Notes under the pieces: generated by a model
Seen by the model: only the letters and a program-made list of their open reading frames with translations
Databases searched by the model: none
Told to the model about the DNA's origin: nothing
Made by a program: the position numbers and the translations under genes
Part shown: piece by piece, positions 9,625-31,448 of the stretch
Position numbering within the stretch: the stretch's first letter is position 1
Layout of the letters: each line of letters starts with the position of its first letter
Origin: a virus
Virus record (IMG/VR): IMGVR_UViG_3300023175_000128
Coordinates: 1 to 33,755 of that record
DNA length: 33,755 bases
Reading direction: 5' to 3' (one strand)

Positions 9625-11073
9625 ATGCTCTCCTACGACTACGAAACACAACCATACGATCACCAGCGCAAGGCGTTGGAAGACTCGTGGGCCGCGGAGT
9701 TTTACGCACTTCTCATGGAGATGGGCACAGGAAAAACCAAGGTGGCCATCGACACGATGGGGGCTCTGTTTGAAGCGGGCAAGGTCAAAGCTGCTTTAGT
9801 TATCGCACCGAAAGGCGTTTACGACAACTGGGTCAAGGGGGAAATTCCCATTCATTTACCTAAGCGGATACCGCGTCAGGTGTTACGGTGGACTCCGGCT
9901 AAGACATTGAAGTTCGAGAACGAGCTTAAGGACTTCATCGTAGACCGTGATCCCAAATTAAAAGTCTTCGTAGTAAATGTCGAAGCCTTCTCTACGCCCC
10001 GTGGCATGGAAGCTGCGGAGGCGTTTCTTTATCAGAACCCTGATAACATCGTTGTTGTGGACGAATCTACGACAATCAAAAATAGGAAAGCATCGCGAAC
10101 CAAGAACATCATCGCGTTGCAGAAGCGGGCCAAGTACCGCCGTATTTTGACCGGCTCCCCCATTACCAAAAGCCCCATGGACTTATTCAGCCAGTGCAAC
10201 TTCTTGGCCGAAAAAGCACTGGGCTTCAATAGCTACTACGCCTTCCAAGCGCGGTACGCGAACGTCGCAAAGAGGACCATGGGACACCGCAGTTTTCAGC
10301 AGATTATGGGCTACCGACGCCTAGACGAGCTATCTGACAAGCTTGACCGGTTCAGTAACCGGGTGCTGAAGGAAGACTGCTTGGACTTGCCTGCCAAGGT
10401 GTATGTCCGCCGAGAGGTAACCTTTACTCCTGAGCAGGAGCGCCTGTACCGACAGATGCAGAAGCTGGCTCTGGCAAAGTTAGAGTCCGGCGAGCTGGCA
10501 ACGACCGCCAGCGTACTGACGCAGATTATGCGTCTTCAACAGATTTGCTGCGGGCATTTGCAGCCAGATGAGGGTGAGATCAAAGAGATCAAAAACAACC
10601 GTTTGAACGAGTTGTTGGACCTCACTGACGAGTTACAGGGAAAAGCAATCATTTGGGCGTCGTATACCCACGACATTCAACAGATAGCTTCTGCCCTGCG
10701 CGACCGTTTCGGGCCCGATTCGGTCGCAACCTATTACGGGGAAACGCCCCAAGACGAGCGACAGGAGATCGTCGAACACTTCCAGCAGAAAGACAGTCCC
10801 CTGCGCTTCTTTGTGGGACAGCCAAAAACAGGAGGTTACGGGATTACCTTAACCGCTGCCCACACGGTGATTTACTACAGCAACAGCTACGATTTGGAAA
10901 TACGTCTTCAATCTGAGGATAGGGCACACCGTATTGGGCAGACAAACAAGGTGACTTACGTGGACCTTGTGACGCCCGGAACCATTGACGAAAAAATCTT
11001 AGGCGCTTTGCGATCCAAGATAGATGTAGCCAGTGAGGTGTTGGGTGAAGATACACGGTCGTGGCTTACTTAG
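9625..11073 (+). CDS. SNF2-family superfamily 2 ATPase/helicase
   Basis: All SNF2 motifs are visible in this 482-residue protein: YDHQ near residue 11, Walker A EMGTGKT (32-38), APKGVYDNW (motif Ia), DEST (146-149) in place of DEAH, LTGSPI (175-180), IIWASYTHDI (IV), GYGITLTAA (V) and QSEDRAHRIGQ (VI) near the C-terminus. Such enzymes translocate on double-stranded DNA and remodel protein-DNA complexes rather than unwind. Phage copies are common, short and lack accessory domains, as here. It is the only plus-strand gene. The start has GAGGA at 4-base spacing. Its 3' end overlaps the convergent minus-strand gene by 8 bases. Confidence 0.93.
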   Translation: MLSYDYETQPYDHQRKALEDSWAAEFYALLMEMGTGKTKVAIDTMGALFEAGKVKAALVIAPKGVYDNWVKGEIPIHLPKRIPRQVLRWTPAKTLKFENELKDFIVDRDPKLKVFVVNVEAFSTPRGMEAAEAFLYQNPDNIVVVDESTTIKNRKASRTKNIIALQKRAKYRRILTGSPITKSPMDLFSQCNFLAEKALGFNSYYAFQARYANVAKRTMGHRSFQQIMGYRRLDELSDKLDRFSNRVLKEDCLDLPAKVYVRREVTFTPEQERLYRQMQKLALAKLESGELATTASVLTQIMRLQQICCGHLQPDEGEIKEIKNNRLNELLDLTDELQGKAIIWASYTHDIQQIASALRDRFGPDSVATYYGETPQDERQEIVEHFQQKDSPLRFFVGQPKTGGYGITLTAAHTVIYYSNSYDLEIRLQSEDRAHRIGQTNKVTYVDLVTPGTIDEKILGALRSKIDVASEVLGEDTRSWLT

Positions 11074-11443: not shown

Positions 11444-12325
11444 CTAGCCGTTCATGAGCGAGGCAATGCCCCCGCCCATTACTCCGCTGCCGGGCATCGG
11501 TCCACCACGTGGAACGGGTAATGCTTGCGAGTATTGCTGCATCATAGGACCGCCGCCAAAACCGAAACTTTCTTCTGCGCCAAAATGGGCACGTTCGGCT
11601 TGGTCAACTAAATCTAAAAACTGATCTACTTTTTGCTGTTGTTGCTGCATTTCAGGAGCCGCGTATGTTTGCATTAGGTAGTTTTGATAAACCTTTAACG
11701 GAGACGCCTGCATCTGGCCCATTTGCTGACCAAATTGGGTGTGTAATTTTTCAAACAAGCCGCCGATAGCGGGCTGAGGCATCGGTCCTCTATCAACTTG
11801 AACTTGAGGCGTCGGCATGGGCATCGCCGAGTAAGTCGATTTCATAGGATTTGCGTATGGCGATTGAATCATCCCGCCCTCCTGCATATGTTGTACTGGG
11901 GGCACTACGCCACCTTCAGCTCTTTCTATTTGACGGTCCGTCCTATCGTCATCTGGGATGTTACCGGGACCAACGTCCGTGCCTGTCGAGGTGCTTGTCG
12001 TAGTTTCATACCCTATGGGCCCGCTCATACTAGCAAAACCAGAAAGCCCCGAAGTTCCGCCTCCGGAATGGCCTGAAAAGCCGCCTAAACTAAAGTATGG
12101 GTTCGTTCCCCCACGTCCTTGAACAGCATAAGAAAACGGAATAGCTTCTTGAGCGCGAGACATCGCAGCTTCACGGTTTGCAGCACGGGCCGCGGCCTGA
12201 TCGGCAAACCGGTCGTACTCTTCTTGGCTGCTTGCCCACTCCGGGTTCTGTAGTTTGTTCCAATCGGCAGCGCTGTAATAACCGCGCTCTCCGGCAGGTC
12301 CAGTATATTCGGAAAAAATTCCCAT
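11444..12325 (-). CDS. Virion-associated Gly/Gln/Met-rich protein (293 aa)
   Basis: The N-terminus (MGIFSEYTGPAGERGYYSAA) is followed by an Ala/Arg-rich helix, a Gly/Ser/Thr low-complexity stretch (about 75-125), the motif pair AEGGVVPPVQHMQEGGMI (about 136-153), a helical region and a terminal GGGIASLMNG. The 'GG...MQxGG' and 'GGIASL' motifs recur in structural proteins of marine phages. It follows the 1,272-residue protein with a TAATG overlap and precedes the small membrane protein. It is probably a minor virion or internal protein. No catalytic motif is visible. Confidence in the gene is high, in the role moderate. Confidence 0.75.
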   Translation of the reverse strand: MGIFSEYTGPAGERGYYSAADWNKLQNPEWASSQEEYDRFADQAAARAANREAAMSRAQEAIPFSYAVQGRGGTNPYFSLGGFSGHSGGGTSGLSGFASMSGPIGYETTTSTSTGTDVGPGNIPDDDRTDRQIERAEGGVVPPVQHMQEGGMIQSPYANPMKSTYSAMPMPTPQVQVDRGPMPQPAIGGLFEKLHTQFGQQMGQMQASPLKVYQNYLMQTYAAPEMQQQQQKVDQFLDLVDQAERAHFGAEESFGFGGGPMMQQYSQALPVPRGGPMPGSGVMGGGIASLMNG

Positions 12326-15300
12326 TAGCCTTGTCCTGCCAAACTAGCAATTCCCATCAAATCGCGGTCTTCGGGAAATAAAGCTGCAAACCTAGCCCTA
12401 TCAACCGTTCCTGAAAGGGTTGAAGGTGGTGACTGGGGAGTCGCAGAAGCCAGTTGAGTCAGGCTAGGCGCAGCACCACTGCCCTGAGTGGGAAATTGGG
12501 CAGGCGGTACGAATGCCCCTTGCTGGTTAGCAGGAGGCAAATTTTGTGGCAAGTTCATCGGACGCTGGGGAGGCGGAGGCGCTTCGTACTCTTCTGTAAT
12601 GGCTTCGTCAGTCGCACGAACACCAATTGGTATACGACGGCCCACCTGACGAGCCAACGGAGCCATAATCGCTTCGATACGGGTAACCGCATTGTCGGCC
12701 ATCTTCTTGTCTTGGATTTCCTTCATCATTTCAGCAAGAAGCTTTGGATTACTGAACATGTCAGTCATGACTTTAATACGCTGGGTCTCTGGGCCGCGGA
12801 GCAAGACCCGCTGCACGAGGTCCGAACCAGTCTGTTCAGCGATCAAGCCCCCGCTCATTTGCGGCATACCCAAGAATTTCTTCAACTGTTGCTGCGCTGC
12901 GGCACCAGCAGTCGCACCCGCAATGCGGATGTAAAACAGCTTGGCCATGCTGGGGTTTTTGAACAGTACGTTTTCAAAGTTGTTGGTGGCAAAAGCTTCT
13001 TCTACACCACGTAACGTTTTAATGGCTTTTTGAACATCGGCCATTTCATCTTCGGTGGCCAAGCCTTTGCGAACCAAGAAATCGCTGATCGAAAGCTTGG
13101 CGCTGGGGTCTACCCCGGGTATCTGTGTAAACAGCTCCCGCTGCAACACATCACCGTTTGGCAAGCCCGCGGTGTTGTTTGCTTTACGTAGCGCATTGTT
13201 GAAGATAGCCGATTTAAGGCCCTGCATAGCCTGTTCACGAGTAAAATCAGCGTCTTTGTAGTCGGCTTCGTTTACCATGCGATAAAGCGCATTGAGCGCC
13301 AAGCTTGGTTTTTCCGCCGCTAAAGCTTTGGCAACCGCTTTGCCCGGGTCTTCGTACTGAAGCACCCATTGGAAAGCCTTAGTGCCGTAATGATTGGTCA
13401 ACTGTTCATTGGTCATACCCGCACGGGCAGCTTCTGACGGCTTCATTTGAAGCGTTATATCATCCAACATGCCATCAAATGCGCGTTGCGCAGACTGAGC
13501 ATTAGCTAAATCCACCTCAAGGTCTGGAATAAGAGCATACAATTCTTTAGTGCCGGGTTTTTCACGAAAACCTTGCAATTTTGAGGGGTTTACTACAAAA
13601 GTCTCAACTGCTTCACCGGTGGCAGGATTTGTAACGATTTTCTTATCCACAATTTGATTCAAGGAATCGCGGAGCGCGGCCTGCATAATTTGATCTGCGT
13701 CCATCGCTTGGACGGCTTCTTCAGTGAAGCCTGCTTCGTCGATCAGGAATCGACCGGCTGCACGGATTTGGTCAAATCGTTTTGCCGTGCTGAGGTTGCC
13801 CCCACGGAAAGCCACGTCTAACAGGTTTTGTGGGTCCAAAATCAGTCCACGGTTACGATCTACTGCTTGCAAATCGCTCAAGAAGCTACGCGTAAATACG
13901 TTGTTTCGGGCAAACGTATAGGCGCGGGCTGTGTTGTAAGCCTCAGAAACCCCGTCTTTTTGACCGGTCAAGTCGCGCAGTAAAGCATCGTTAAGTTTGT
14001 CCAAACGTCCAGCGTTCACAATATCGCCTTGCTTACGCAATTGTGCGGCTCGGTTCATCAAGCCCGACCGCATTTCAAAGAATTTTTGAGCAGTGGCCGG
14101 GTTGCGACCTTGGCCGTCTTGGAAGTAAGTAGCCAAATCGTCGAAATCGTCTTTGTATTTACCCAAAGCCGCGTTTAATTCACCTTGAGCGCCCTTAGAA
14201 GAAAAGTTCAAACCACCTCGGCTTGAAGGACGACCAAGCAATTGCAGCACGTTAGGTTGGTTAATCTGCCGACCATTACGTGCATAAAACTCTGTCAGCG
14301 GGAAATTCTTAACTTCCGCCCAAAGACGGCGCTCACGCGTTTTACTCAGGTCAATTTGATTTTTTAAAACGTTGTATAAATTTTCCGAAAGCTCCGTTCT
14401 CGTAGAAGGTAAATCTGGACCACGGCCTAAAACTTGTTTGGCTGCCCCAAACAAGTTAGCTACGCCATTATCAATGCCGTCTAAGATGTTTTGCTCAAAC
14501 AAACCTTGTTGAATACGGGCCGCGTAGGCAAGTGCTGCCGGGTCACCAGTAGACGACAAAGCTCGAATTGCGTTAATTGCACCGGCTTGCAGCTCTTCTC
14601 GACCTCGCCCAGTGGCGGCTTTTAAGTCAGCACTGGATTTAGCCAGTTCTTGCTGAATAGTCTGCATGGTCGCGGAAAAAGGCAGTCCTTCCATAGAGGC
14701 AAGGTCCGCAGCAGTAAGCGGTATCGGCTTTCCATCCGGACCTATGCGTTCTCTAGCCGCAGCTTCACCAAGCTGCTGAATAAAGATATTGAGCCTTTCT
14801 TCCCCTGTTTGAAGGACGGTTCCATCCGGTCCTACAACAGGCTCGAACTCCTGCGATTTTTGAATCGCTTGAAGTATGCGATTAGCTGCGTCTTTTTCTA
14901 GTTTACCGCGTAAAACACCTTGTCTTGCTGTCTCATCGGTTCCTTTGCCCCACCACTCTTTCATGGTGCGGAAAACACCTTTGACTAGATCAGGGCCTGT
15001 ATCGACGGCCAGTTGTACCGGAATAGGAACAACCAAAGAGCCGATTAATTCGCCACCGATTCGGTAACCTTCATCATAAGGTGCCATATTCTGTGCAACT
15101 GCGGCACCCGTACCGGTTCCTAACGCTACCAAGCCCTCAGTAGCAAGAAATCTACCCGGCTTATCACGAGCCGCAGCCATAGATTTCTCAATCCCGCCCT
15201 CTACCCCAGCGACTAGACGAGCGCCAACCGGGCCTTTTCTTGGGTCAAACAATTTACCGGCAGGGTTAAAACGGGTTAAGCCTAAGTTAACGCCATACTG

Positions 15301-16143
15301 ACCACCAAACATGGGGCCCATTTCAGAAGCAACTTCACGAGCTTTTCGAGCTTTTTCAAAAAGTTTAGCTGCTGCTTTTTCAGACAATCCTGCATCGCGG
15401 GCCGCGAGCTGGAAGGCTTCGTCAGCTACGTCGGTGTATTTACCAGAAGAGACGTTTTTGAAGTTTTCCACAAACTCAATAGCGCCTGTTTTAGCTTTAG
15501 GAATAGATGGAGCTAGTTTCCATGGCGACGCCAACATTGACATGGCGATCATGCCTGTTTCACCACCGCGGTATCGGCCCTCAAGGGAAGGAATAACGGG
15601 GTCCGCTTCTCCAATAATGGCGTCTTCAGCCGCACCAAAGCCCATTGCGCCAAGAATAGCGCCGCCAATACCGCCGATTCCGTAAACAATACCTTTGGCT
15701 GCAAGACCGGGTAAGCCAACAGGCGGGATCATAGCTGCAATAGGGGTCGCTGCTGCTAAACCCGTTTTAAAACCAAGGCCCGCCCCAATTGTTTCAGGGA
15801 TTTCTCGCGCCGCACCCGCAGCAATCGCTTTTGTTCCGGGGCTGAAAAAACTGTCATCCGCCGGGTCGAATTTTCCAAAGTCTTCGACGTTGGTAAATAG
15901 CGTCAAAATTTCCTCATCAGAAACTTGACGTTGGTCTGGAGTTAAACCTTTGTAGCGATCAAGCTGGTCTAAAATTGGGTGTGTACCATTTTTAAGCGCT
16001 TCACGAGTTAACGGTACACCCCCTAATTCAAGCTCTTCGTTAGCAATAGACAAGATGCCGTCCACTGTATTGGCCAGCCCTTGCGTCTCCATCAGGTTTT
16101 CAAACTGAGGTCTTGTCAGACTAATTAAAGCGTCATCTGCCAT
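12325..16143 (-). CDS. Large internal virion/DNA-ejection-type protein (1272 aa)
   Basis: A helical N-terminus is followed by a long Gly/Ala-rich hydrophobic zone (about residues 105-180, e.g. GIVYGIGGIGGAILGAMGFG) with two or three possible membrane segments. A further hydrophobic part lies near 335-375. A long helical body follows, then a proline-rich C-terminal linker (about 1180-1240) and a final RARFAALFPEDRDLMGIASL. Very long, membrane-active, helix-rich proteins in this genomic position are the ejection proteins of podoviruses (T7 gp16 or P22 gp16/gp20 analogues), which leave the virion and span the envelope. No lytic transglycosylase motif is apparent. The function is inferred from size, composition and position. 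Confidence 0.75.
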   Translation of the reverse strand: MADDALISLTRPQFENLMETQGLANTVDGILSIANEELELGGVPLTREALKNGTHPILDQLDRYKGLTPDQRQVSDEEILTLFTNVEDFGKFDPADDSFFSPGTKAIAAGAAREIPETIGAGLGFKTGLAAATPIAAMIPPVGLPGLAAKGIVYGIGGIGGAILGAMGFGAAEDAIIGEADPVIPSLEGRYRGGETGMIAMSMLASPWKLAPSIPKAKTGAIEFVENFKNVSSGKYTDVADEAFQLAARDAGLSEKAAAKLFEKARKAREVASEMGPMFGGQYGVNLGLTRFNPAGKLFDPRKGPVGARLVAGVEGGIEKSMAAARDKPGRFLATEGLVALGTGTGAAVAQNMAPYDEGYRIGGELIGSLVVPIPVQLAVDTGPDLVKGVFRTMKEWWGKGTDETARQGVLRGKLEKDAANRILQAIQKSQEFEPVVGPDGTVLQTGEERLNIFIQQLGEAAARERIGPDGKPIPLTAADLASMEGLPFSATMQTIQQELAKSSADLKAATGRGREELQAGAINAIRALSSTGDPAALAYAARIQQGLFEQNILDGIDNGVANLFGAAKQVLGRGPDLPSTRTELSENLYNVLKNQIDLSKTRERRLWAEVKNFPLTEFYARNGRQINQPNVLQLLGRPSSRGGLNFSSKGAQGELNAALGKYKDDFDDLATYFQDGQGRNPATAQKFFEMRSGLMNRAAQLRKQGDIVNAGRLDKLNDALLRDLTGQKDGVSEAYNTARAYTFARNNVFTRSFLSDLQAVDRNRGLILDPQNLLDVAFRGGNLSTAKRFDQIRAAGRFLIDEAGFTEEAVQAMDADQIMQAALRDSLNQIVDKKIVTNPATGEAVETFVVNPSKLQGFREKPGTKELYALIPDLEVDLANAQSAQRAFDGMLDDITLQMKPSEAARAGMTNEQLTNHYGTKAFQWVLQYEDPGKAVAKALAAEKPSLALNALYRMVNEADYKDADFTREQAMQGLKSAIFNNALRKANNTAGLPNGDVLQRELFTQIPGVDPSAKLSISDFLVRKGLATEDEMADVQKAIKTLRGVEEAFATNNFENVLFKNPSMAKLFYIRIAGATAGAAAQQQLKKFLGMPQMSGGLIAEQTGSDLVQRVLLRGPETQRIKVMTDMFSNPKLLAEMMKEIQDKKMADNAVTRIEAIMAPLARQVGRRIPIGVRATDEAITEEYEAPPPPQRPMNLPQNLPPANQQGAFVPPAQFPTQGSGAAPSLTQLASATPQSPPSTLSGTVDRARFAALFPEDRDLMGIASLAGQG

Positions 16144-16155
16144 GCCAAAACCCCT

Positions 16156-18906
16156 TTAATTTCTTCTCATTTGTAGGATTTGATCCCGCGCCGTCGTTAA
16201 GCTTTGATCTTGACCCGGAACAACAGAGGAACGAGTAGAGGGTTCAACCGCGAAGGCTTTTTGGAAAGCAAGAACTTCATTGTAAAGTCGCTTGATTTCG
16301 TCCATCTCTCTTCCCATTTGTTGTACTTCTGAAGGCTTAAGATTACTGGAATCACCACCATAAGCGGGAAGCATGTCTCGCCCTTTTCTAAGAGTTTGTT
16401 CTAAAGAACCTGCAATTGTTTCCAAAGCGGCGCTTGCATCAGCGTCCGTTCTAAACAAAAACCCTCCGGGGCGGATGTTTTGAGTTTCTTTTTCCAAAAG
16501 CTCTTGAACAAACTTAAGTACTCGACCCCCTTGATCCCCGGAAGTGTTGTATTGCAACAAGTCGTTGGCTAACGCCTCTAAACTTGTAGCGGCTCTAGCC
16601 ATATTTTTGGCTTGCGGACTTGCATCGCCGCCAAATAATTCCGCGGAGCCTTCCGAAAACGCCTTCTCAATACCCGGGAAAAAACGAGACGCGCCGACCA
16701 CTAGCTTGTAATCAACATTTGGATCAAAGATTGCGGGCGGAGTTACAGACCAAGCCTCGGACTCGTTGTTTATCGAACCATCAGGGTTAAATATTTCCGC
16801 TTTATAGTCCTTTAAAGTCCGTTGTGGAGGGGGAGTTCCGGTTCCGGTTCCGGTTCCGGTTCCGGTTCCGGTTCCAGCACCGCTTTGATCGACAGTTGCG
16901 TCGATTTCCATGGTTTTTGCAACTTGCTCGTAAAACGCAGGATTGCCTTTTTGAATGGCTGCCAATACGCGAGGAGCCAATTTGTTAGGGGCCCCTTTAA
17001 CGTAGCGTCCGGCCCCTGCGTCCCAAACCTCGTTGTTTTTCGGGTTGATGTAATCCAGAACAAGTTGCTCGAACTCGGTTGTACCCTCTCCAAGCGTACC
17101 GTTAGCGTATTTGTCCAACCTTTCAGTGTCTGTTAGGTAGGTAATCGTGTTAGTAAGCGACTCACTGCCCAGTTTAGTTGCATTCGCAGCCAACTGGTCA
17201 ATAGCCAATTTACCAAGCTTGTACGCTTCGTCGAGTACCTGAGCGCGTTCGGCCAAGCCAAGCTGTACGTCGGTCTGATCGGCTCTACGTGTAGCCAAAG
17301 CGTTATCAAACTGACGGTTAATCTTAGCAATACCGCGGTCAATTTCAGCCTGATCCGACGTGAACTTCTGCATTTCCTCCTGCATGAGCTGCCGGAAATT
17401 TTGATCGCTAAGTTGCAGGTTCTCACGCTGTGCGCGATCCAATGCCGCTTCAGCCGCCGTGAAGGCGTTCTGGAACTCTTGTGCTTCGCGAGCAATAGCG
17501 CCTTTATGGCTGGCCAAGGCAAGGTTAAATCCATGACCTTTGTCCATGCGCTCCAATTCGTAGGTGTTAAGAATGCCGTCACGCTGAAGCTGGTTCTCAA
17601 ACGCCAATTGGTTTTCAGCAATACGAAGCTCGCTGCCAAGACGCATGTTGTCTTGCTCAAGCTTGTTGCGAAGCTTGATAGCTTCTTGGTTTTCATCGCC
17701 TTGCAAGCCCAAAAGCGCTACGTCGTTTTGGAATTTCAAGTTTTGCAAGCGCTCAGTAAATTCTTGCTGACTTAAGCGGTCGGCGTTTTTAAAGTCAAAG
17801 TCCATGTTCTTCAGCGTGATCTGGTGCGCACGATCTAAGCGCGACTCACTTGCTGAAAAATCATTCGCTGCTGTTTGTAATGCCGCTTTAGCTGCTGCGG
17901 CTTCTTCTGACGCCAGCGTGGTTTCTGCTGCGCCCAAGGCTTGTAAGTTCAAAGCGCGTTCTTCACGTCTTTGACCCTGCTTAAACTTTTCTAGCTCACC
18001 AGCGCGAGCGCTGATGTTGCCAAGAACCGGGGTAAACGCTTGTGCCAGACGCTCGGCAGGGCTCATTCGACGGTCGCCCGGGGTAGCGAACATCAAAGCG
18101 CCTTGCGCGATGTCAAACAGCATCTGCGCCTTAGTCATGTCAGTCTGTTCTTCTAACTCTAGCGCGGAGTCTTGCGGTGACAGGATGCTGGAGTACAAAG
18201 ATTGCTTCTGACCATAAATTTCTCCAAGGCGACCCCCCAGTGGACTGCCACCGTCTTGCATATAAACTACAGGACCGCCTTGGTTAAAATTTACAGGAGC
18301 AGGGCCCCCTAGACCCTGAGCAGGCTCTTGAGCGCCCATGTTGACGGTAGACATGATGCCTTCCGCCAGCGCTCCTTCGACTGGAGCATTCATTTCTTCC
18401 ATGGCCAAACCGCCGATCCCTTGATCGACGGAAGCCATCAGCATGACAGGCTGCACCAGTGCCAGAACCGATTCAGGCGTCTGTCGCGCATCTTCTTGAC
18501 CCACAATGCCAGCCAGTTCCGTGTACCGTTGTTCAATCGGCGCATTGTCGCCTCGAATACCGTTGATGACCTGCTCATAATCTTGGGCATTTTCTAAATC
18601 GTCTAGCTGGCTGGCGTATTGACTAAGCATCCCCTCCATCATGACGGGATCAATACCTTGCTGCATTGCGCCTTGAGCTGCCTGATTTAGATCAATTGAG
18701 TTAGGGTCTACTTGCCCCATCGCACCGGCCATGACTTCTGGTCCGAGGCCCGCGGGCATTGGTGCCATGCCACCCTGCTGCATATTAATTACACCGCGAC
18801 CCATCAGAATATCCTTCTGAGTCACTTGTCCATCGCCACTTAGATCAGGAAAACCGGCAGCGCCGCCTTTCTTGAACATCTGACGCTCCATTACACTTCT
18901 GTTCAT
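16156..18906 (-). CDS. Large helical virion protein with EF-hand-like N-terminus (916 aa)
   Basis: The N-terminus contains FPDLSGDGQVTQKDILMGRG (19-38), a dockerin/EF-hand-type DxSGDGxVTxxD loop that could bind calcium. MQQGG and later QGGPVVYMQDGGSPLGG follow. Residues about 300-560 are a long, charged coiled coil rich in Gln, Arg, Glu and Ala. A GT dipeptide repeat (seven copies, near 665-680) acts as a linker to a C-terminal helical domain. It is probably an internal or ejection protein, coupled to its upstream neighbour by ATGA and 12 bases from the next gene. There is no recognised enzymatic motif. The hexanucleotide repeat beneath the GT stretch may be length-variable. Confidence 0.75.
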   Translation of the reverse strand: MNRSVMERQMFKKGGAAGFPDLSGDGQVTQKDILMGRGVINMQQGGMAPMPAGLGPEVMAGAMGQVDPNSIDLNQAAQGAMQQGIDPVMMEGMLSQYASQLDDLENAQDYEQVINGIRGDNAPIEQRYTELAGIVGQEDARQTPESVLALVQPVMLMASVDQGIGGLAMEEMNAPVEGALAEGIMSTVNMGAQEPAQGLGGPAPVNFNQGGPVVYMQDGGSPLGGRLGEIYGQKQSLYSSILSPQDSALELEEQTDMTKAQMLFDIAQGALMFATPGDRRMSPAERLAQAFTPVLGNISARAGELEKFKQGQRREERALNLQALGAAETTLASEEAAAAKAALQTAANDFSASESRLDRAHQITLKNMDFDFKNADRLSQQEFTERLQNLKFQNDVALLGLQGDENQEAIKLRNKLEQDNMRLGSELRIAENQLAFENQLQRDGILNTYELERMDKGHGFNLALASHKGAIAREAQEFQNAFTAAEAALDRAQRENLQLSDQNFRQLMQEEMQKFTSDQAEIDRGIAKINRQFDNALATRRADQTDVQLGLAERAQVLDEAYKLGKLAIDQLAANATKLGSESLTNTITYLTDTERLDKYANGTLGEGTTEFEQLVLDYINPKNNEVWDAGAGRYVKGAPNKLAPRVLAAIQKGNPAFYEQVAKTMEIDATVDQSGAGTGTGTGTGTGTGTPPPQRTLKDYKAEIFNPDGSINNESEAWSVTPPAIFDPNVDYKLVVGASRFFPGIEKAFSEGSAELFGGDASPQAKNMARAATSLEALANDLLQYNTSGDQGGRVLKFVQELLEKETQNIRPGGFLFRTDADASAALETIAGSLEQTLRKGRDMLPAYGGDSSNLKPSEVQQMGREMDEIKRLYNEVLAFQKAFAVEPSTRSSVVPGQDQSLTTARDQILQMRRN
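16835..16876 (-). repeat. Hexanucleotide microsatellite in coding sequence
   Basis: Six perfect copies of GTTCCG (plus strand, 16835-16870) and a seventh with one change (GTTCCA) encode seven Gly-Thr pairs. Slippage would add or remove GT pairs without breaking the frame, so linker length could vary between particles or strains. Confidence 0.9.
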
Positions 18907-21900
18907 CCAAATAACCCCGCTTTTGCTGCGCCGCCTGCTGCTGACAGACCGGCTATGCCCAAGCCAAGAATTGACTGGGCTGGTGACACGCCGCCACCCG
19001 ACGCTTGTGAAATAGCCATTTGGCTAGATGGCGCACCTTTGTAAATATCTGACAAAAAGGCAATACGCTCGTAAGGCTCCATAACTGTTTGAAGCTCATT
19101 TTGACGTGCCGCTTCAAGTTCGGCTTGCTGTTGAGCTTGTAGCTGCCTACCCATATCGAACAAGAATCCTTGCTCTTTTTGGCCAAGCTGCTGTGAAAGC
19201 TCCCCAAGAGCGCCTTGGCGTAGACCAAGCTGACTGAGAGCTTCGCCTTGCTGTAGGTTGAGCTGGCCGTACTGTGTTCCGAGGGCCCCGAGTCCTTCTC
19301 CGAGACGTCCGGTAAGTTCCTGACCTTGTAAGCCCAGAGCGCCCGCGGCTTGTGAGCCTTGGATTGCCAATTGACCTTGACTTTGACCCAACTGACCGGC
19401 TTGTCCAGCAAGCTGGCCCGCAAGCTGATCGGCAGAAATGCCCAGCATTGCGGCTTGTCGAGCAATATCGGCTTCTTGTCCTGCACCTTGCAAGCCAAGC
19501 TGACCAAGATTTGTATTAAGCTGCCCGGCGAGCTGCGCTGCGCTCATACCTGTCTGAGAAGCAAGCTGTTGTAAATTCATGCCGGTGCTGGCTAATGCTT
19601 GAGCATTGGCAGAGGCCATTTGTTGTGCGCTGAGACCAAGCTGGGCCCCTTGTTGCGCGGCCTGCAACCCTGTCTGAGCAATAAGCTGCTCGGCGGACAA
19701 GCCCGTCTGCGCCTGCTGGTTGAGGAGCTGTCCAGCAAGCTGTTCCGCAGACATACCGAGCTGGGCCGCTTGTCCTGCAAGCTGACCCTGTAATTGTGAT
19801 GCCGACATGCCCAATTGACCTGCAAGCTGTTCTGCTGCGATGCCGGTTTGAGCCTGTTGTTGAGCCGTTTGAGCGGCCAATTGTTCGGCAGATAGGCCGA
19901 GCTGACCGGCTTGTTGCGCGGTCTGGGCCAAAAGCTGGTTTGCAGACAATCCGGTCTGGGCCTGCTGTTGTAGCATCCGTGCAGCCATTTCTTCGGTAGA
20001 GATACCAAGCTGCGCAGCCTGTCCGGCAAGCTGGCCTTGTAGCTGTGCAGAAGACATTCCGAGCTGTCCCGCCAATTGCTCTGCTGACTGTCCCAACTGG
20101 CCCGCTTGAGCCAAGTTTTGTGCGGCGAGCTGTTCTGCGGCCATCGCCTGCTGACCCATCTGGCCGTATGCAGACAGACCAAGCTGACCACCTTGTAGCA
20201 GTCCGGCTTGTGCCAGTTGTTCTGCGGACAATCCTGTCTGGGCAGCCAACTGCTCCGCAGACATACCGAGCTGTCCTTGTTGTTGCGCGGTCCGTGCAGC
20301 TAATTCCTCAGCCGACAGGCCAAGTTGACCCGCCGCCTGAGCTGCTTGAAGACCGGTTTGTGCGCCTTGCGCACCGAGAGCGCCAGTAAGCTGCGCCGCT
20401 TGCTGACCTCTTGCTTGTTGAGCTTCAAAGGCTTGTTGTGCGCGTTGAGCGGCACTTTCAAAACCTTGCTGGCGCATACCTGCTGCGGTACGAGCCTGTT
20501 GTTCGAGAATGTTTCGCTGTAATTCAGCTTCTTGTACAGCCTGCCGAGAACCACCAAAGGCTCCGGCCCCAACAGCTTGTGCAGCGACCTGCTGCTGTTG
20601 AATATCACCGGCACGTTGAATATCACGCAGCGCTTGTTGAACCGCAGCATCTTCATACTGGTTCATAAATGCGCCAGCAGAAGTGGGATCAAACGCCCCC
20701 GTCGTACCGGCTAGACCAGCAATACCTTGTTGAGCAGTCTGTGTTCCGAGGGCCCCGGCCTGTTGTAGGGCCTGCGCGGCCTGACCAGTAATGCCTCGTG
20801 CGCCAGTAATAGCGGCTTGGGTATCCATGGCAGCTTGTTGCGCTGCCGTGCGACCACCTGTACCTGCTCGTGCAGCGACGTTACGTGCAGCTTGTGCCAC
20901 ATCGCCAACACCGCCCATAGCTTGTTCAAATGCGCTAATACCACCAGCACCGGCTTGTTGAGCCGCGAGCCGTGCTGCGTCGCTGACGCCGCCCAGACCC
21001 GCTGCCGTGCCTGCGGCACCTAAACGTGCGCCCAGACCCGCTTGAGCAGCCGCATCTGCGCCCGCTAAACCAGCGGCGGCAAGCGCTTGTTGTCCGCCAG
21101 CCGCTTGTAATCTTGCTGCGTCTAACGCAGCTTGTGTCCCTGCACCGGCTTGTTGTGCAGCCGCAAGGCCACCAATGCCAGCTTCCCCCAGAGTTTGTCC
21201 AGCACCCTGAACGCCTGCACGAGCAGCCTGAATAGCTGCGGCAGTGTCAGTTCCAGCCTGTTGAGCCGCGGTCCGCGCTCCAAGGCCGGATTCTTGTGCA
21301 AAACCTTGTCCTAAACCAGCGGCTTCACCTAAATTGGCTTGTCCAGTAAGCGCCTGTAGTCGAGAGGCGTCGATTGCTCCAGCAATGCCTTGCCCCGCAC
21401 CGGCAGCCAAGTCACGTGCGCTAAGAGCGCCTTGTGCCGCCCCAGCTAACCCGGTTTGACCCGCGGCAGCTTGTTGCGCCGCAGCGGCAGAAGCGGCATC
21501 TAAGCCCCTGCCTAACGTATCAACAACGCCTGTTTGAGCAGCACGTTGCGCAGCAGCTTCGGCAGCCGTTAGGGCCGTCCCCATACCTGCTTGAGTGCCT
21601 TCAAGAATACCCGGGATACGGCTTGCCGCCGTCCCCATACCTGCTTGACCCGCCGCAGCCTGTTGTTGTGCGCCAGTGGCCGCTTGACCCATCGCATCAG
21701 TAGCTAATTGAGTAGCGGTAGCGCCTGTTCCAATACCACCGGCAATACCGGTTTGTGCCGCAGTTACTTGGTCAGGAATGCCCTGCAAAGCTGCCCGATA
21801 AGCTTGAGCCGCTTCGGCCTGAAACGGCAAAGCGCCTGCCATGGTCGCGCCAATGGCTTGTTGTGCATCACCAAGGGTGTAACCAGCTTGGTCTAAATAC

Positions 21901-22091
21901 CCTTGATAGTTTCCAATCCCGGCAGCAGCCAAGTCGGCTGCGGTGGTTTGTAAGCCTGATAAATCGGCTATTAACTTAGGCGGTAGTGGGCGACCAAGGT
22001 CTGCGAGCGTTTTAGCATCTTGTAAAAGGGCGAGTTTAATCGCCTCGATTTCGGGCGCTTCGCGGACAATCTGAGTGGTTGTTTCAGCCAT
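18903..22091 (-). CDS. Giant Ala/Gln/Gly-rich repeat protein (1062 aa)
   Basis: After a leader of about 110 residues, the N-terminal half has loose AAQQAGAGT-type repeats. A conserved middle segment follows with MNQYEDAAVQQAL, AVGAGAFGGSRQAVQEAELQ and LEQQARTAAGMRQQGFESAA. The next 350 or so residues are dense LGMSAEQLAGQ-type repeats. Units of 11 and 18 residues (11+7) alternate, as expected for a straight alpha-helical rod. The C-terminus (EPYERIAFLSDIYKGAPSSQ and a Gly-rich hydrophobic tail GLGIAGLSAAGGAAKAGLFG) is conserved in marine phage proteins. It has no Cys pair or catalytic motif. It is probably an internal virion or tail-associated elongated protein, between two other ejection-type genes. 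Confidence 0.75.
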   Translation of the reverse strand: MAETTTQIVREAPEIEAIKLALLQDAKTLADLGRPLPPKLIADLSGLQTTAADLAAAGIGNYQGYLDQAGYTLGDAQQAIGATMAGALPFQAEAAQAYRAALQGIPDQVTAAQTGIAGGIGTGATATQLATDAMGQAATGAQQQAAAGQAGMGTAASRIPGILEGTQAGMGTALTAAEAAAQRAAQTGVVDTLGRGLDAASAAAAQQAAAGQTGLAGAAQGALSARDLAAGAGQGIAGAIDASRLQALTGQANLGEAAGLGQGFAQESGLGARTAAQQAGTDTAAAIQAARAGVQGAGQTLGEAGIGGLAAAQQAGAGTQAALDAARLQAAGGQQALAAAGLAGADAAAQAGLGARLGAAGTAAGLGGVSDAARLAAQQAGAGGISAFEQAMGGVGDVAQAARNVAARAGTGGRTAAQQAAMDTQAAITGARGITGQAAQALQQAGALGTQTAQQGIAGLAGTTGAFDPTSAGAFMNQYEDAAVQQALRDIQRAGDIQQQQVAAQAVGAGAFGGSRQAVQEAELQRNILEQQARTAAGMRQQGFESAAQRAQQAFEAQQARGQQAAQLTGALGAQGAQTGLQAAQAAGQLGLSAEELAARTAQQQGQLGMSAEQLAAQTGLSAEQLAQAGLLQGGQLGLSAYGQMGQQAMAAEQLAAQNLAQAGQLGQSAEQLAGQLGMSSAQLQGQLAGQAAQLGISTEEMAARMLQQQAQTGLSANQLLAQTAQQAGQLGLSAEQLAAQTAQQQAQTGIAAEQLAGQLGMSASQLQGQLAGQAAQLGMSAEQLAGQLLNQQAQTGLSAEQLIAQTGLQAAQQGAQLGLSAQQMASANAQALASTGMNLQQLASQTGMSAAQLAGQLNTNLGQLGLQGAGQEADIARQAAMLGISADQLAGQLAGQAGQLGQSQGQLAIQGSQAAGALGLQGQELTGRLGEGLGALGTQYGQLNLQQGEALSQLGLRQGALGELSQQLGQKEQGFLFDMGRQLQAQQQAELEAARQNELQTVMEPYERIAFLSDIYKGAPSSQMAISQASGGGVSPAQSILGLGIAGLSAAGGAAKAGLFG
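19190..20330 (-). repeat. Internal 11/18-residue coding repeats
   Basis: Degenerate DNA repeats encode units such as LGLSAEQLAAQTAQQQAQ (18 residues), TGIAAEQLAGQ (11), LGMSASQLQGQLAGQAAQ (18) and TGLSAEQLIAQ (11). They are alike in protein but differ at wobble positions, so they are old duplications under selection rather than recent copies. Confidence 0.75.
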
Positions 22092-23863
22092 TACGACATT
22101 GCCCTCCCACGGCGCTCAAGGTTTCGCATGACCGAATACATATTCTTGATGCCGTTATTAAGGTTTCCGTTGCCCAAGCCTCTAACAGCGTCTGTCGTCA
22201 TGACAAATTCGCCCGGCATGAGCATAGCTCTTACACTATCTTCGCCCGGAGTACCTTCGTTTGGCATAATGCCGCCATTGCGGCGCGGGAAGACTTCAGG
22301 GATTGCTCCACCCTGTGCGGCAGCGACGTAAGGACGCGCAAATGGGCCACCCGGGTTAGAAGCAAGTAAGTAACCTGCGCTGTTGTTTACACCGTAACCG
22401 CCTTGAGGAGCAGAAACTGGATACTGCGTTGGAACAACATATGGGTTTGTTGCAGGTACGGTAACATCAACTTCTTCTTGTTCTTTATCTTCGTATTGCC
22501 CGGTTTCAGGGTTAAATACGCGTGTCCCGAGGTCCGCGATACGATACCGAGCTGGATCGGCGTCGATCAAATCTTGGCCGGTAACGGGCGTTCCATCGGG
22601 GTTGTAGTCAATAAAGTCTGCCGGTATAGCGTCGGGCACTTCAAACATGCCAGTAGCACCCGCAGCCAACGTACCTGCGGCTGCCAGCGGAGCAAATGCC
22701 CTAAACATGCCGGGGTTAGCTGCCTGAGCAGCTATTTCAGCACCTTTTAGCTGGGCCGCGGTAGCATTTACCGGATTGATGTTATTTGCGGCTAAGACAT
22801 CCGCAGTAGTAGTTCTTGCAGGGAAAAACGCGTCGCCCAAACCTTCCACAAAGCCAACGTCATCACCGGGGGTCAATGCGCCTTTTATGCTTTCAAAGAA
22901 ACCCGGTGGCTTATCAATGGTTTGAATAGCGCCTGATTGTGCCGCTTGTGTGGCACCCTGTTGTGCCGCTTGCTCCGTGGCTTGTTGGGTAGCTTGTTGC
23001 TCCGCAGTTTGTTGTGCCGCTTGCTCGGGAGTAACTTGAGCAGCGGGATCAGCAGAAGGAGCGTCCGCGCCGCCTGCGGCCTGTACCTCAGCCCCCGGCG
23101 TCGGTACATACTCAGCGAAAAAGTTCTCGCCAAATCCACTTAAGCTGCCGCTACTTACGCCTTCGGTAAAACCAGATACTGTTTGGCCAAAACGACCGCC
23201 AAAGTCGGACGCAGCATTTGCAATGTTTTCAGTAAAGCTTCCAGAACCGGTAAATCCAGCCGTGACGCCACCAATTGCACCACTAATCAGTGCTGACTTC
23301 AGGGCGTCCTTAATACTACCGCCGTTAATTAGCGTTCCGATACCTGAACCAAGCGCGGCACCGAAAATAGGTCCGAGGGGCGTGAATGACAAAGCAATAG
23401 GCAAGACAATCGGAGCGATCTTCTTGACCACTTTTACGACGGCCTTAACAACCTTCTTGATAGCTTTAAAAATCTTTTTAAGGAAAAACTCGTAAGCGCC
23501 CGTTTCTGGGTTAATGCTATTTGAGTCAGAACCCACAACGTAACGCTCTGGGTCTTCAATGCCATACTCACGCATACGCTCGAAGAGCAGTTCTTTAAGC
23601 TCCTCGTTGTCAGCAATTAGCGCTGCGGGTATAATTAGTTCACCGGTTTCGACGTGAGCAATGCTATCATCGCCCTCACGACCCATGGCCGCCATCTTTT
23701 TGGTTAAGGCAGGAAATTGCGCGATACCATCATCGCCAAACTCTTCCGTGCCATCAGAATCCGGACCGTAAACGGCATCCGCTTCTTCGTCCTCCATGAT
23801 GAAATCAGCGATACCACCCTCGGGAACGGTTAACTCTTCCATTTTTTCAGCTACTTCTGCCAT
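22091..23863 (-). CDS. Internal virion protein with amphipathic/Gly-zipper segment (590 aa)
   Basis: The N-terminal acidic region contains DDSIAHVETGELIIPAALI and SINPETGAYEFF, a pattern known from memory in marine phage structural genes. It is followed by a strikingly basic amphipathic helix (KKIFKAIKKVVKAVVKVVKK, about 128-147) and a hydrophobic Gly-rich stretch (IVLPIALSFTPLGPIFGAAL, then GTLINGG). This looks membrane-disrupting or channel-forming. A Gln/Ala low-complexity linker (about 275-310) leads to a C-terminal domain with NGGIMPNEGTPGEDSVRAML and PGEFVMTTDAVRG, the widespread PGEF motif of phage tail and virion proteins. It is likely an ejection or tail-associated protein. Both ends overlap neighbours as TAATG. 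Confidence 0.75.
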   Translation of the reverse strand: MAEVAEKMEELTVPEGGIADFIMEDEEADAVYGPDSDGTEEFGDDGIAQFPALTKKMAAMGREGDDSIAHVETGELIIPAALIADNEELKELLFERMREYGIEDPERYVVGSDSNSINPETGAYEFFLKKIFKAIKKVVKAVVKVVKKIAPIVLPIALSFTPLGPIFGAALGSGIGTLINGGSIKDALKSALISGAIGGVTAGFTGSGSFTENIANAASDFGGRFGQTVSGFTEGVSSGSLSGFGENFFAEYVPTPGAEVQAAGGADAPSADPAAQVTPEQAAQQTAEQQATQQATEQAAQQGATQAAQSGAIQTIDKPPGFFESIKGALTPGDDVGFVEGLGDAFFPARTTTADVLAANNINPVNATAAQLKGAEIAAQAANPGMFRAFAPLAAAGTLAAGATGMFEVPDAIPADFIDYNPDGTPVTGQDLIDADPARYRIADLGTRVFNPETGQYEDKEQEEVDVTVPATNPYVVPTQYPVSAPQGGYGVNNSAGYLLASNPGGPFARPYVAAAQGGAIPEVFPRRNGGIMPNEGTPGEDSVRAMLMPGEFVMTTDAVRGLGNGNLNNGIKNMYSVMRNLERRGRAMS

Positions 23864-24093: not shown

Positions 24094-24386
24094 GATGTTG
24101 TCACCGTGACACTACCCACGGCCCCCGTTGCTGACACCCCACGGGGGTGTGGTTTGTTTGCAAGCGCAATTTTTAAGAAACCGTCTACCTGAAAAACGCC
24201 ACCGTTTTCCAAGCCAAAATCGTCCGTCTGCAAATCGGTTAATGTAAGACTTGAGGCCCGCCACGGACCCGGATTGTTAACTTGGTTCAAAAATACAGAG
24301 AAGGCACGGACAATCTCTGCCTGATACATCTGATCGTATTCGGCAGGCGCATTTGGAAATAGCGGCTGTACCAGTCCTCTACTCAT
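24090..24386 (-). CDS. Small virion-operon protein with beta-repeat tail (98 aa)
   Basis: The start is taken as ATG 24386 (MSRGLVQPLFPNAPAEYDQM), which overlaps the hub-protein stop as ATGA; the frame is open further up inside that gene. It has a helical YDQMYQAEIVRAFSVFLNQV segment (about 15-36) and a beta-rich middle. It ends in GVSATGAVGSVTVTTS, which matches one unit of the 22-residue repeat of the LamG protein at 30129-31448. Small proteins of this type sit beside hub/stabilisation genes in marine phages. It may be a minor tail component. Confidence 0.65.
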   Translation of the reverse strand: MSRGLVQPLFPNAPAEYDQMYQAEIVRAFSVFLNQVNNPGPWRASSLTLTDLQTDDFGLENGGVFQVDGFLKIALANKPHPRGVSATGAVGSVTVTTS

Positions 24387-26308
24387 CGGCGACCATCCTG
24401 CCGCATGTCTACACGTGGTGTGCCCAAACGCCACCCCACACCGGTTTCATCAGAGGCTATCTTGAATGCAAAAGACCGACCACGTAGTCGTATGTTTACT
24501 TCGTTCGTAAATTGCTCGACCGGCACTGTTGCACTTCGCGTCACTGGACTATCTGTCGTCGATGAATACGCCGCACCGGGCCAATTTCTGGTCTGCAAAG
24601 TAAAATCTACGCTTGGTGATTCGGCAGTAGAGCCGTTAAAGGTCACATCTGGAATCAATCGGCTGAGGAAAACAAAATTGTCTCCAGCACCAATCGACAT
24701 CTGGCTGCTTTCAATGTAGGCGTCAATCGAAACGGGTGGATTTACGCTACCATCATCAAATCCAAACTCGTGGTAATAAAGGTATCCGTCCAACGATGCA
24801 GCAATAGGGTATTGATTAATCCCACGATCCAGCCAAACCGAGCGATCCAAAGTTCCGTAGTACCAAACCTGCTCTTGATAGTTGTAAACCACATACCTGT
24901 CGATGTTGTCAGAATCCGCAGACGGATAAAACCACCAAATTTCCGAATAAGCAGAATTAACGCCGCAGGTAACTTTCTCTTGTTGGCTGACGTTAAAGTC
25001 GTTGAAAACGAAAGAACGCACCGAACAAGGTAGCTTTTGCACCTGCCCGGTATACATATAAAAGTCTTCTTCACCCATCCAAAAAACGAGATCGTCTACG
25101 GCAACCGCAGCCAAAGGGCCTGCAATTGTCACGTTTGTCGCAATTTCGTTGATACCAAAGGTGAAGGGCGGCCCCAAATACTGCATCGCGTGTAGCGACG
25201 TGTCCGTAAACACGAGAATCTGCTGCCGTGTTTCGAGGGCCGTGATGATTTCAGAACCTGTACCGATCCGCAGATCACCTGCCGTGTTAGTTGCAGCAGC
25301 CGCCCAAACCAAGGGGTTTTCTTGGTCGGAAAACCGGATCAAAAGCGGGTCTTGCGTACCAATGTCATCTTGAGGATCACAGCCAAACACGATTACGTGC
25401 CTGTCACGGTCAGAAATTAGAACCTGTTTAGCAATCGTAGGTGTCGTGGCGTCCGCCCCGGCAAGGTCTGAAAGGGCCACGGCCCGTGTAAAGGGTGCCG
25501 AACTGGTCGATTTATCCCAATAGTAGATACCACCATTGCGGATGTTAATGATGAGGTCTTCACCAAAGTTGTCATGGCTCCAAATACGCAAGGTATCGCC
25601 AATCGCAGTCAGAGTAGCACCCGATCCCCACGTTCCTCGGGACCACGTGCCTGCACCCCAACCCGTACCAGCGACGGTTGTATCCAGACCGGTTAGAACT
25701 TGATAAGCCCCAACAACAGATGCTCCGCCGTTACCGGTGTCTGAACCGTCTGCCACGACGGGAACGGGGGTGTACTGGCCATCAATGGTAATATCTGCAA
25801 GCGTATTTACCTCACGAGCTATAATCTCGTAAGTGTTGGCGTTTTCTACGCGAGAAATCTGATACTCTTGGTTGAGAACGTCTGCCGTAATCTGACCACC
25901 AAGGCTTACAGCGCCTGAAAACGTAACAAAATCGTTTTCTTGTGCGCCGTGGTTGGTGTCAGTGACAGTGATCGTAGAAGAGCCGTTGGTCGCGGCAAAC
26001 GTTACATCGCCCGCAGCCGTTGTTGCACGGATTGGCGTAATGTCGGCGTAACCCCCACCCTCATTAATGTAATACTTGAGGTGTGTACCTACGCCGATGT
26101 AGCTCGTTCCGTCTAAAGCAACAAACGGATGAAGCGCCCGACAGGTGCCAAGGAAGCTTTTGCCTGAAAGTCGTTCCCAGCCCCCAATTTTTTCGGGCGT
26201 TCCAAACCTAAACCGCACTTTGTCACAGTCAAACCAGCCCCCCTCGTTGGTATACGAGGTGGTTTCTCTATTTACACCCGGTCTGAACTGTAACTTTTGT
26301 AGCGGCAT
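24383..26308 (-). CDS. P22 gp10-like DNA-stabilisation / tail hub protein (641 aa)
   Basis: The N-terminus (LQFRPGVNRETTSYTNEGGW, then DKVRFRFGTPEKIGGWERL) is characteristic of the phage packaged-DNA stabilisation family related to P22 gp10, as I remember it. An inserted Ig-like beta domain (about residues 90-170, TFAATNGSSTITVTDTNHGA) is followed by blade-like Trp/Asp/Gly-rich repeats (DDLVFWMGEEDFYMYTG; EIWWFYPSADSDNIDRYVVY). It would form the hub closing the portal after packaging. GAGG precedes the ATG. It is flanked by small minor genes. Family assignment is fairly secure; the exact name is less so. Confidence 0.8.
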   Translation of the reverse strand: MPLQKLQFRPGVNRETTSYTNEGGWFDCDKVRFRFGTPEKIGGWERLSGKSFLGTCRALHPFVALDGTSYIGVGTHLKYYINEGGGYADITPIRATTAAGDVTFAATNGSSTITVTDTNHGAQENDFVTFSGAVSLGGQITADVLNQEYQISRVENANTYEIIAREVNTLADITIDGQYTPVPVVADGSDTGNGGASVVGAYQVLTGLDTTVAGTGWGAGTWSRGTWGSGATLTAIGDTLRIWSHDNFGEDLIINIRNGGIYYWDKSTSSAPFTRAVALSDLAGADATTPTIAKQVLISDRDRHVIVFGCDPQDDIGTQDPLLIRFSDQENPLVWAAAATNTAGDLRIGTGSEIITALETRQQILVFTDTSLHAMQYLGPPFTFGINEIATNVTIAGPLAAVAVDDLVFWMGEEDFYMYTGQVQKLPCSVRSFVFNDFNVSQQEKVTCGVNSAYSEIWWFYPSADSDNIDRYVVYNYQEQVWYYGTLDRSVWLDRGINQYPIAASLDGYLYYHEFGFDDGSVNPPVSIDAYIESSQMSIGAGDNFVFLSRLIPDVTFNGSTAESPSVDFTLQTRNWPGAAYSSTTDSPVTRSATVPVEQFTNEVNIRLRGRSFAFKIASDETGVGWRLGTPRVDMRQDGRR

Positions 26309-30128: not shown

Positions 30129-31448
30129 TTACGCTGCTATTCGCGTCCAGTTAGCATCTTGTGTTGGCGTATCCTCCGACCACGTGGGCGACTGACTGGG
30201 TGTCACATCAATATACCCCGGATTTTGATCGGGGACAATATTTGAGTACACCAGTACCTGTCCAACGCGTCCTGTCGCAGCTACACCTATTGCATTTACG
30301 ATAGCGTCTGCTTCAACTCTTACGCTACCAACTCTTCCTGTACCAGCTACGCCACCTACATCAACATTCTGGTCAGTGGTGACTGAAACAGACCCAACCG
30401 CACCTGTCGATTGTAATCCAGTAACGGGAACAATTGCCTCACTATCTACGGAGACGGTTCCTACTTCACCAGTAGCTTCAAGACCTGTCGGGAAGACATT
30501 AGCTTCTCCAATAACAATAACGCCACGGTCTGTTTCGTTGATAATGTCGGTAGAGCCGTTAGTACCGTCAAAGTGTAAAAGTGAATTTGTGTCGCCATCT
30601 ACTGCGTAATTTGCAGTCGGCTCTGTAAAAGAGGTGCCCCCATAACGAGCAACTGAAGACAACCGCAGTTCATCAATGTACCCATTGAAGTCACCAAAGC
30701 CGTTTTTACCAATAGCAAACACGCCATTATCGGGGCGGTTTCCAGTAGAACTTGATGCCTCTAAGACCCCGTTGATGTAAAGCCTGTGAACATTCCCCTC
30801 TCTTTCAACAGAAATCATAGTCCAGACATTTGGAGAAATTCTGGTACTAGATAAGAAGAGTGTCGTTGACCCGCCGACAACGCCTTGAACCTGATCTCCA
30901 ATCAAATACACATTAAGCAGAGAGCTTGTACCTGACTGCCACAAACCTTTGTAGCCTGTAACATTTGTCGGACGAATCCACATATCTACTGTGAAGTCGC
31001 CAGAACTTAGGTCAATGTTGTTGTCAGAGGTTACAAAGTCGTCCGTCCCATCAAGCAGGAGTGAAGATGGGCCAAACTTAGCTTGGGCCGTGGAAAGCTG
31101 CGCGTTTCCATCTGCCGTAAATGCCGGGCCACCGCCCGTTGGTGTTATAGCCTCTGCGGAGACGCCGGTTACACTAACATTTGCTGTACCGGTAACGGTA
31201 ACTGAGCCTACGGCTCCTGTTCCTGACACGCCCGTAACATTAGCGTTTGCATCTGCGGTAACCGTAACGGAACCTACGGCTCCTGTTGCGGTTAATCCGG
31301 TTACAGGAACGTTTGCATCTGCATTTACTGTTGCGGACCCAACGTTCCCGGTTGCGCCGGGCAAACCCTCATCTTCGCCCCACGCTCCACCGCCCCAACC
31401 TTGGCTAGAAGAGTTCCAGCCTTTAAATGCGACGGTAATGTCCGACAT
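30129..31448 (-). CDS. LamG-type lectin-like virion protein with 22-residue repeats (439 aa)
   Basis: Three beta-repeat units open the protein (VTGLTATGAVGSVTVTADAN and relatives, about 30-105). A LamG/concanavalin-type jellyroll follows (about 115-285: KFGPSSLLLDGTDDFVTSDN, GDFTVDMWIRP, HRLYINGVLEA, GYIDELRLSSVARY, with LLHFDG at its end). Four further units (GLQSTGAVGSVSVTTDQN, GRVGSVRV, GRVGQVLV) precede a Pro/Thr/Ser tail ending in TQDANWTRIAA. LamG folds bind carbohydrate, so a tail-spike or decoration role in host-surface binding is likely. It overlaps its upstream neighbour by TAATG and precedes the tail fibre. Confidence 0.8.
   Translation of the reverse strand: MSDITVAFKGWNSSSQGWGGGAWGEDEGLPGATGNVGSATVNADANVPVTGLTATGAVGSVTVTADANANVTGVSGTGAVGSVTVTGTANVSVTGVSAEAITPTGGGPAFTADGNAQLSTAQAKFGPSSLLLDGTDDFVTSDNNIDLSSGDFTVDMWIRPTNVTGYKGLWQSGTSSLLNVYLIGDQVQGVVGGSTTLFLSSTRISPNVWTMISVEREGNVHRLYINGVLEASSSTGNRPDNGVFAIGKNGFGDFNGYIDELRLSSVARYGGTSFTEPTANYAVDGDTNSLLHFDGTNGSTDIINETDRGVIVIGEANVFPTGLEATGEVGTVSVDSEAIVPVTGLQSTGAVGSVSVTTDQNVDVGGVAGTGRVGSVRVEADAIVNAIGVAATGRVGQVLVYSNIVPDQNPGYIDVTPSQSPTWSEDTPTQDANWTRIAA

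Follow-up and report, generated by a model that had tools for sequence, protein, structure and literature searches.

What does a viral protein of 1062 residues, much of it built from near-repeats, form? The question is raised by a gene on the minus strand at positions 18903-22091 of a 33,755-nucleotide stretch of virus DNA (IMG/VR record IMGVR_UViG_3300023175_000128, positions 1 to 33,755), which we refer to as the window. The gene is a single complete open reading frame (ORF) with an ATG start, and another IMG/VR contig has an identical copy (3189 of 3189 bases) at locus L006. An earlier reading of the letters alone (the original prediction), which named no strand, had described a helical repeat protein of a short-tailed phage, the C-terminal half of which could make a straight rod or a right-handed bundle and might act as an extensible conduit or a ruler. 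The single rod proved to be wrong. Helical periodicity, a GAFGG turn, arms of equal length, and paired whole-turn insertions at mirrored sites, all seen at the level of sequence, indicate that both halves are arms of one alpha-helical hairpin with its turn in mid-protein. The gene is listed here as encoding a long helical-hairpin protein of ejection type.

Parts of the protein and its repeats

A scan of IMG/VR with the 1062-residue protein found 53 loci, and scans with two short relatives found 80 and 37. Complete relatives span ~270 to 1346 residues and have in common an N-terminal domain, a central GAFGG block, and a C-terminal domain with PYER-x2-FLSDIYKGAPSS; the remainder varies in length. 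In the window protein, all parts of which lie on the minus strand, the conserved N-terminal domain (residues 1-66; 21894-22091) includes the sequence REAPEIEA and a G-I-G-x-Y anchor at residue 58, as judged by invariant columns in 22 family members. It is followed by the N arm (residues 67-470; 20682-21893), an Ala/Gly/Gln-rich helix with degenerate periods of 18, 29, and 36 residues. The best-conserved part of the family is the distal end of the hairpin (residues 463-580; 20352-20705), which is also a hairpin in predicted models. Within it lies the turn, GAFGG (residues 510-514; 20550-20564): G510, A511, and F512 are invariant in 25 family members, and residues 509-513 are nonhelical in the predicted model of the 1062-residue protein. 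The Gln/Ala/Leu/Gly-rich C arm (residues 579-985; 19137-20357) contains 104 Gln or Asn in 410 residues and few charges; the composition bias is strong. The conserved C-terminal domain (residues 985-1062; 18906-19139), defined by family columns, combines the PYER motif with a Gly/Ala-rich tail, and its hydropathy is at most 1.27 over 19 residues.

The predicted 11- and 18-residue periodicity was confirmed. A [LT]G[MLIQ][SANQ] motif occurs 22 times within residues 579-936, and all 21 spacings between copies are 11 (7 cases), 18 (13 cases), or 29 (1 case) residues. None of 5,000 shuffles equaled this lattice; the best had 2 allowed spacings. Identity autocorrelation over residues 580-1000 gave the same picture relative to shuffles, with lags of 18 (z, 11.7), 29 (z, 10.3), 47 (z, 8.7), and 11 (z, 7.9). 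Both spacings had been expected to alternate through the C-terminal half. Their order is in fact irregular, with no strict alternation, and the regular array (19284-20357) stops at about residue 936, short of the C terminus. The N-terminal half, which the original prediction left out, has no significant period when residues 120-470 of the 1062-residue protein are analyzed alone, yet the periods of the C-terminal half are present in it when 15 family members are pooled (lags of 36, 54, 29, and 18; z, 11.0, 8.2, 6.7, and 6.3).

Both arms also have the period expected of an alpha helix. Across the family, hydrophobic as well as polar residues recur every 3.58-3.63 residues in each arm, within the range of 3.5-3.67 residues used as a criterion for coiled-coil-type 7/11/18 repeats. 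N-arm glycine departs from this repeat, and large hydrophobic residues in the N arm of the 1062-residue protein alone peak at 3.27.

Matched arms and mirrored insertions

The N arm was taken as the stretch between the G-I-G-x-Y motif and GAFGG, and the C arm as that between GAFGG and the C-terminal domain, in 90 distinct complete proteins of 294-1346 residues, which gave 54 distinct length pairs. Proteins without a recognized turn or C-terminal match had been left out earlier, and 20 without the G-I-G motif were dropped. Over the 54 pairs, the lengths of the N arm (72-596 residues) and the C arm (86-614 residues) were related with r = 0.998, a slope of 1.000, and a median offset of 18.5 residues; 41 pairs lay within 4 residues of this rule. 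Across relatives, both arms lengthen together. A held-out set of 25 proteins (21 distinct pairs), from a scan made after the rule had been seen, gave r = 0.997. Random growth in either arm would be expected to leave a mean imbalance of 61 residues, compared with 4.5 observed.

Shared ancestry was addressed with independent contrasts for 64 proteins, using a first anchor taken from the N-terminal profile (r = 0.996; same sign in 36 of 46 non-zero contrasts; 0 of 20,000 permutations). With that anchor the slope was unchanged, r was 0.993, and the scatter was 16.7 residues; the fit is looser because some subfamilies have extra residues ahead of the G-I-G motif. Remote subfamilies (L037, L040, L045, L046, and L057), with 35-45% identity to the 1062-residue protein, had offsets of -17 to -19, as did L088 and L101. 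Exceptions included the group of 294-298 residues (-13 to -14), L151 (-25), L013 and L157 (-11), L204 and L246 (-6), L029 and L242 (-1), and L031, L032, and L036 (+3).

A single helical turn takes 3.618 residues. The distinct C-arm lengths (n = 50) shared one phase of this period (R = 0.735), a value reached by none of 2,000 random sets (best, 0.486). A helix rises 0.15 nm per residue. If fully helical, the arms of the 1062-residue protein (452-473 residues) would therefore be ~68-71 nm long, and arms across the family would range from ~11 to ~92 nm.

Close relatives differ by insertions of equal size at equal distances on either side of the turn. Insertions of 18 residues lie at -155 and +158 from the turn in the pair L016/L020, of 29 residues at -111 and +110 in L022/L025, of 64 and 65 residues at -156 and +156 in L016/L014, and of 40 residues at -81 and +82 in L010/L011. 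The gene identical to that of the window, L006, differs from L010 by 36 residues at -129 and +134. Among 40 automatically listed pairs with at least 70% identity, 14 had one insertion or deletion (indel) per arm, several of these sharing members, and the two sizes agreed within 2 residues in 14 of 14. For 16 hand-chosen pairs, the summed mismatch between arms was 29.5, compared with 202 ± 31 when the C-arm indels were relocated (0 of 1,000 relocations); taken singly, 5 of the 16 were not below 0.05, and this set and another of 22 hand-chosen pairs share members. In seven pairs, the N-arm and C-arm insertions show no obvious sequence relation to each other, and each matched step therefore seems to need two events.

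Predicted structure and comparison with known proteins

Low-confidence AlphaFold2 models of the 1062-residue protein and of a 384-residue relative, L158, are helical along almost their whole length, broken at GAFGG, rather than disordered throughout. The tip of L158 has ten-residue blocks at pLDDT 73-84 and overlays known helical hairpins, a common arrangement, over 59-72 residues at 1.7-2.1 Å (e.g., 72 residues at 2.1 Å). Foldseek found nothing significant in the PDB for either model (best E value, 2.6 for the 1062-residue protein and 0.21 for L158). T7 gp14, the ejectosome outer-membrane channel protein (PDB 7ey7, 7eyb, 9jyy, 9jz0, and 8e4g), was not among the Foldseek matches listed, which excludes nothing. 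A sequence search of solved structures gave no credible match (best E value, 0.54). Pfam helix-turn-helix matches to the repeats were below the curated cutoffs and were judged to be chance.

The proposed role in DNA delivery is supported by a family label. Nine of 10 relatives scanned matched phrog_4287, "DNA ejection protein" (E values, 0.008 to 2e-19), and short relatives align with it across nearly the whole protein. The profile has 392 positions and no counterpart of the long arms of the 1062-residue protein, which is tied to the short relatives through the shared N-terminal, tip, and C-terminal domains. Short members in a phage collection include DSL-LC04 and Pelagibacter phages HTVC023P and HTVC027P. 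The predicted short-tailed phage context was likewise borne out; the HTVC023P type is assigned to the Podoviridae in the cited account (PMC9599517). Two scans of bacterial and archaeal genomes found no relative and hence no host. Profiles of tape measure families did not match the 1062-residue protein, whereas its 590-residue neighbor did match.

Among the closest known systems is T7 gp14, which has the same place in the gene order. The hairpin gene is preceded by genes for a phrog_3287 nozzle-like protein and the 590-residue protein and is followed by two large genes positioned like those of gp15 and gp16, an order conserved in relatives. It thus occupies the place of gp14 between the nozzle gene and the gp15/gp16-type genes, with the 590-residue gene as one extra gene between. 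As described in the cited account, gp14 lies within the internal core before ejection, and afterward it consists of two helices that run antiparallel and are connected by a short loop; six copies form a channel from the nozzle to the outer membrane (PMC11784390). The two-helix form of gp14 is a reported structure, and the hairpin proposed here is supported by co-variation and by low-confidence models. The two proteins differ in size and in membrane helices: gp14-like proteins are reported to vary little, at 181-240 residues, and to have four or five predicted membrane helices (PMC8954989), whereas the window protein has 1062 residues (294-1346 in the arm family) and none by hydropathy. The protein is not placed in the gp14 or gp7 family, since no sequence relation to either was detected and, for gp14, the membrane helices are lacking.

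Two other systems share features with the hairpin. Pilot protein H of phiX174 is described as a helical tube whose lumen is rich in Gln and whose units are of 11 and 7 residues (PMC7354561); the C arm resembles it in its units and its Gln richness. Protein H differs in having one helix of 170 Å per subunit, ten copies, and no hairpin, in a single-stranded DNA (ssDNA) phage. The coiled-coil arms of SMC proteins are reported to be intramolecular hairpins with arm length constrained in steps (PMC5344682). In the cited account their length modes are ~100 residues apart and they are heptad coiled coils with ATPase heads; here, in a phage protein, the steps are single turns and the lengths span 86-614 residues. 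We found no description of length co-variation in this family in the literature searched, which for the most part lacked subscription papers.

Possible role, rival explanations, and gene neighborhood

We consider it probable that the 1062-residue protein serves a short-tailed phage in DNA ejection, that its gene stands where T7 and P22 have those of gp14 and gp7, and that the chain folds into a single antiparallel alpha-helical hairpin. Given the gene order, the two-helix form of gp14 after ejection, and the narrow size range of gp14-like proteins, we read it as a protein that works as gp14 does, with arms grown severalfold. Several copies would pass out of the virion by way of the tail, straighten out, and line up alongside one another, and the packed hairpins could form a helical channel or stalk that lengthens the short tail. 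Arm length would then set the distance from a base, made of the N- and C-terminal domains, to the tip. That the hairpins may form a tube is suggested partly by likeness to the tube of phiX174 H; the extensible conduit of the original prediction may also hold. Still more tentatively, a tubular or stalk-like structure reaching up to ~70-90 nm, present only during infection, might be made from one hairpin protein, with evolution tuning its length by matching whole-turn segments in both arms.

Several observations weigh against this interpretation. Arm equality is broken in L171 (-56), L165 (-32), L164 (-28), and L237 (+18), and the quantization test was not significant for N-arm lengths, perhaps due to slipping of the N anchor by one or two residues between subfamilies. 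The models are of single chains and of low confidence (mean pLDDT, 54 for the 1062-residue protein and 61 for L158). The 1062-residue protein matches phrog_4287 weakly (E value, 0.0054; residues 881-1055), and no 19-residue stretch of it reaches a hydropathy of 1.6 (maximum, 1.27). Profile comparison found no similarity to T7 gp14 (hhalign probability, 0.1%) and, with P22 gp7, aligned 15-16 C-terminal residues only (E value, 0.03-0.4); gp7 itself falls into phrog_598. Finally, phage heads at such a genome size are ~60 nm across. A straight 70-nm rod exceeds such a capsid and the protein must therefore be folded before ejection, probably with the hairpin bent or broken at its many glycines.

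The alternative that survives best, although we think it rather unlikely, keeps the hairpin and makes it an internal core or scaffold part, such as a portal spacer or an organizer of packaged DNA, that never becomes an extended conduit. The family labels say merely "ejection protein," the protein lacks membrane-helix hydropathy, and T7 gp14 is likewise reported in the internal core before ejection (PMC11784390). Arms nevertheless vary sevenfold in records of 48-62 kb (12 of the 16 searched, those of at least 48 kb, with completeness uncertain), a range that a spacer is unlikely to tolerate. Unlikely to a slightly greater degree is pairing between molecules, in a barrel where each subunit's N arm packs against its neighbor's C arm. 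Pairing of either kind, between or within chains, would give arms of equal length and insertions at mirrored sites, and co-variation cannot separate the two arrangements; the tip is predicted, with modest confidence, as an intramolecular hairpin. We regard as improbable a third explanation, that unpaired arms each span one fixed distance, for example in crossing the envelope or lining one neighbor. A shared gap would by itself yield equal arms, but insertions mirrored about the turn, often within 10 residues, require side-by-side register, and the tip is predicted as a hairpin. Length drift of low-complexity Ala/Gln/Gly sequence without structural meaning, which the composition bias and low model confidence might suggest, is scarcely credible and is refuted as far as sequence allows by the matched arms, the mirrored indels, and the comparison with random growth; helical-turn quantization is likewise not expected of drifting sequence.

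The flanking genes are on the same strand. The nozzle/stabilization-like tail protein (641 residues; 24383-26308) matches phrog_3287 with an E value of 1.2e-74. The upstream neighbor (590 residues; 22091-23863), the order of which is kept in relatives, has a tape-measure-like C-terminal motif and a single hydrophobic stretch (hydropathy, 1.82). It is the only one of two tested window proteins to exceed a hydropathy of 1.6, and it may be a membrane partner of the hairpin protein. Downstream lie a 916-residue protein in the gp15 position (16156-18906), with order kept in relatives and no family match, and a 1272-residue protein in the gp16 position (12325-16143), for which the relative DSL-LC04 carries the annotation "DNA transfer protein." A perfect array of 6.8 copies of the hexamer GTTCCG at 16835-16875 encodes a Gly-Thr linker of the 916-residue protein. 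Arm length had no significant rank correlation with the lengths of three neighboring proteins (26, 29, and 22 relatives), and a function as a ruler was thus not shown.

Other features of the window include a pair of 66-bp copies, 79% alike, at 31190-31322, within a 439-residue protein that matches baseplate-wedge and structural families. A helicase gene (phrog_62) at 9625-11073 is on the plus strand, opposite the remaining large genes (minus strand). A 97-residue protein at 4432-4725 matches PHROGs families labeled phosphofructokinase, a doubtful label given its short length.

The hairpin family provides a natural length series, from 72 to 614 residues per arm, for asking what purpose the reach of an ejection protein serves, whether it relates to the thickness of the envelope, the capsule, the distance to the receptor, or another factor. 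For structure prediction, it indicates that length co-variation alone can expose a fold that models capture poorly. The family is, moreover, a clear example in which two widely separated parts of one gene have changed length together, and how phages get through the mismatched intermediate is a testable question.

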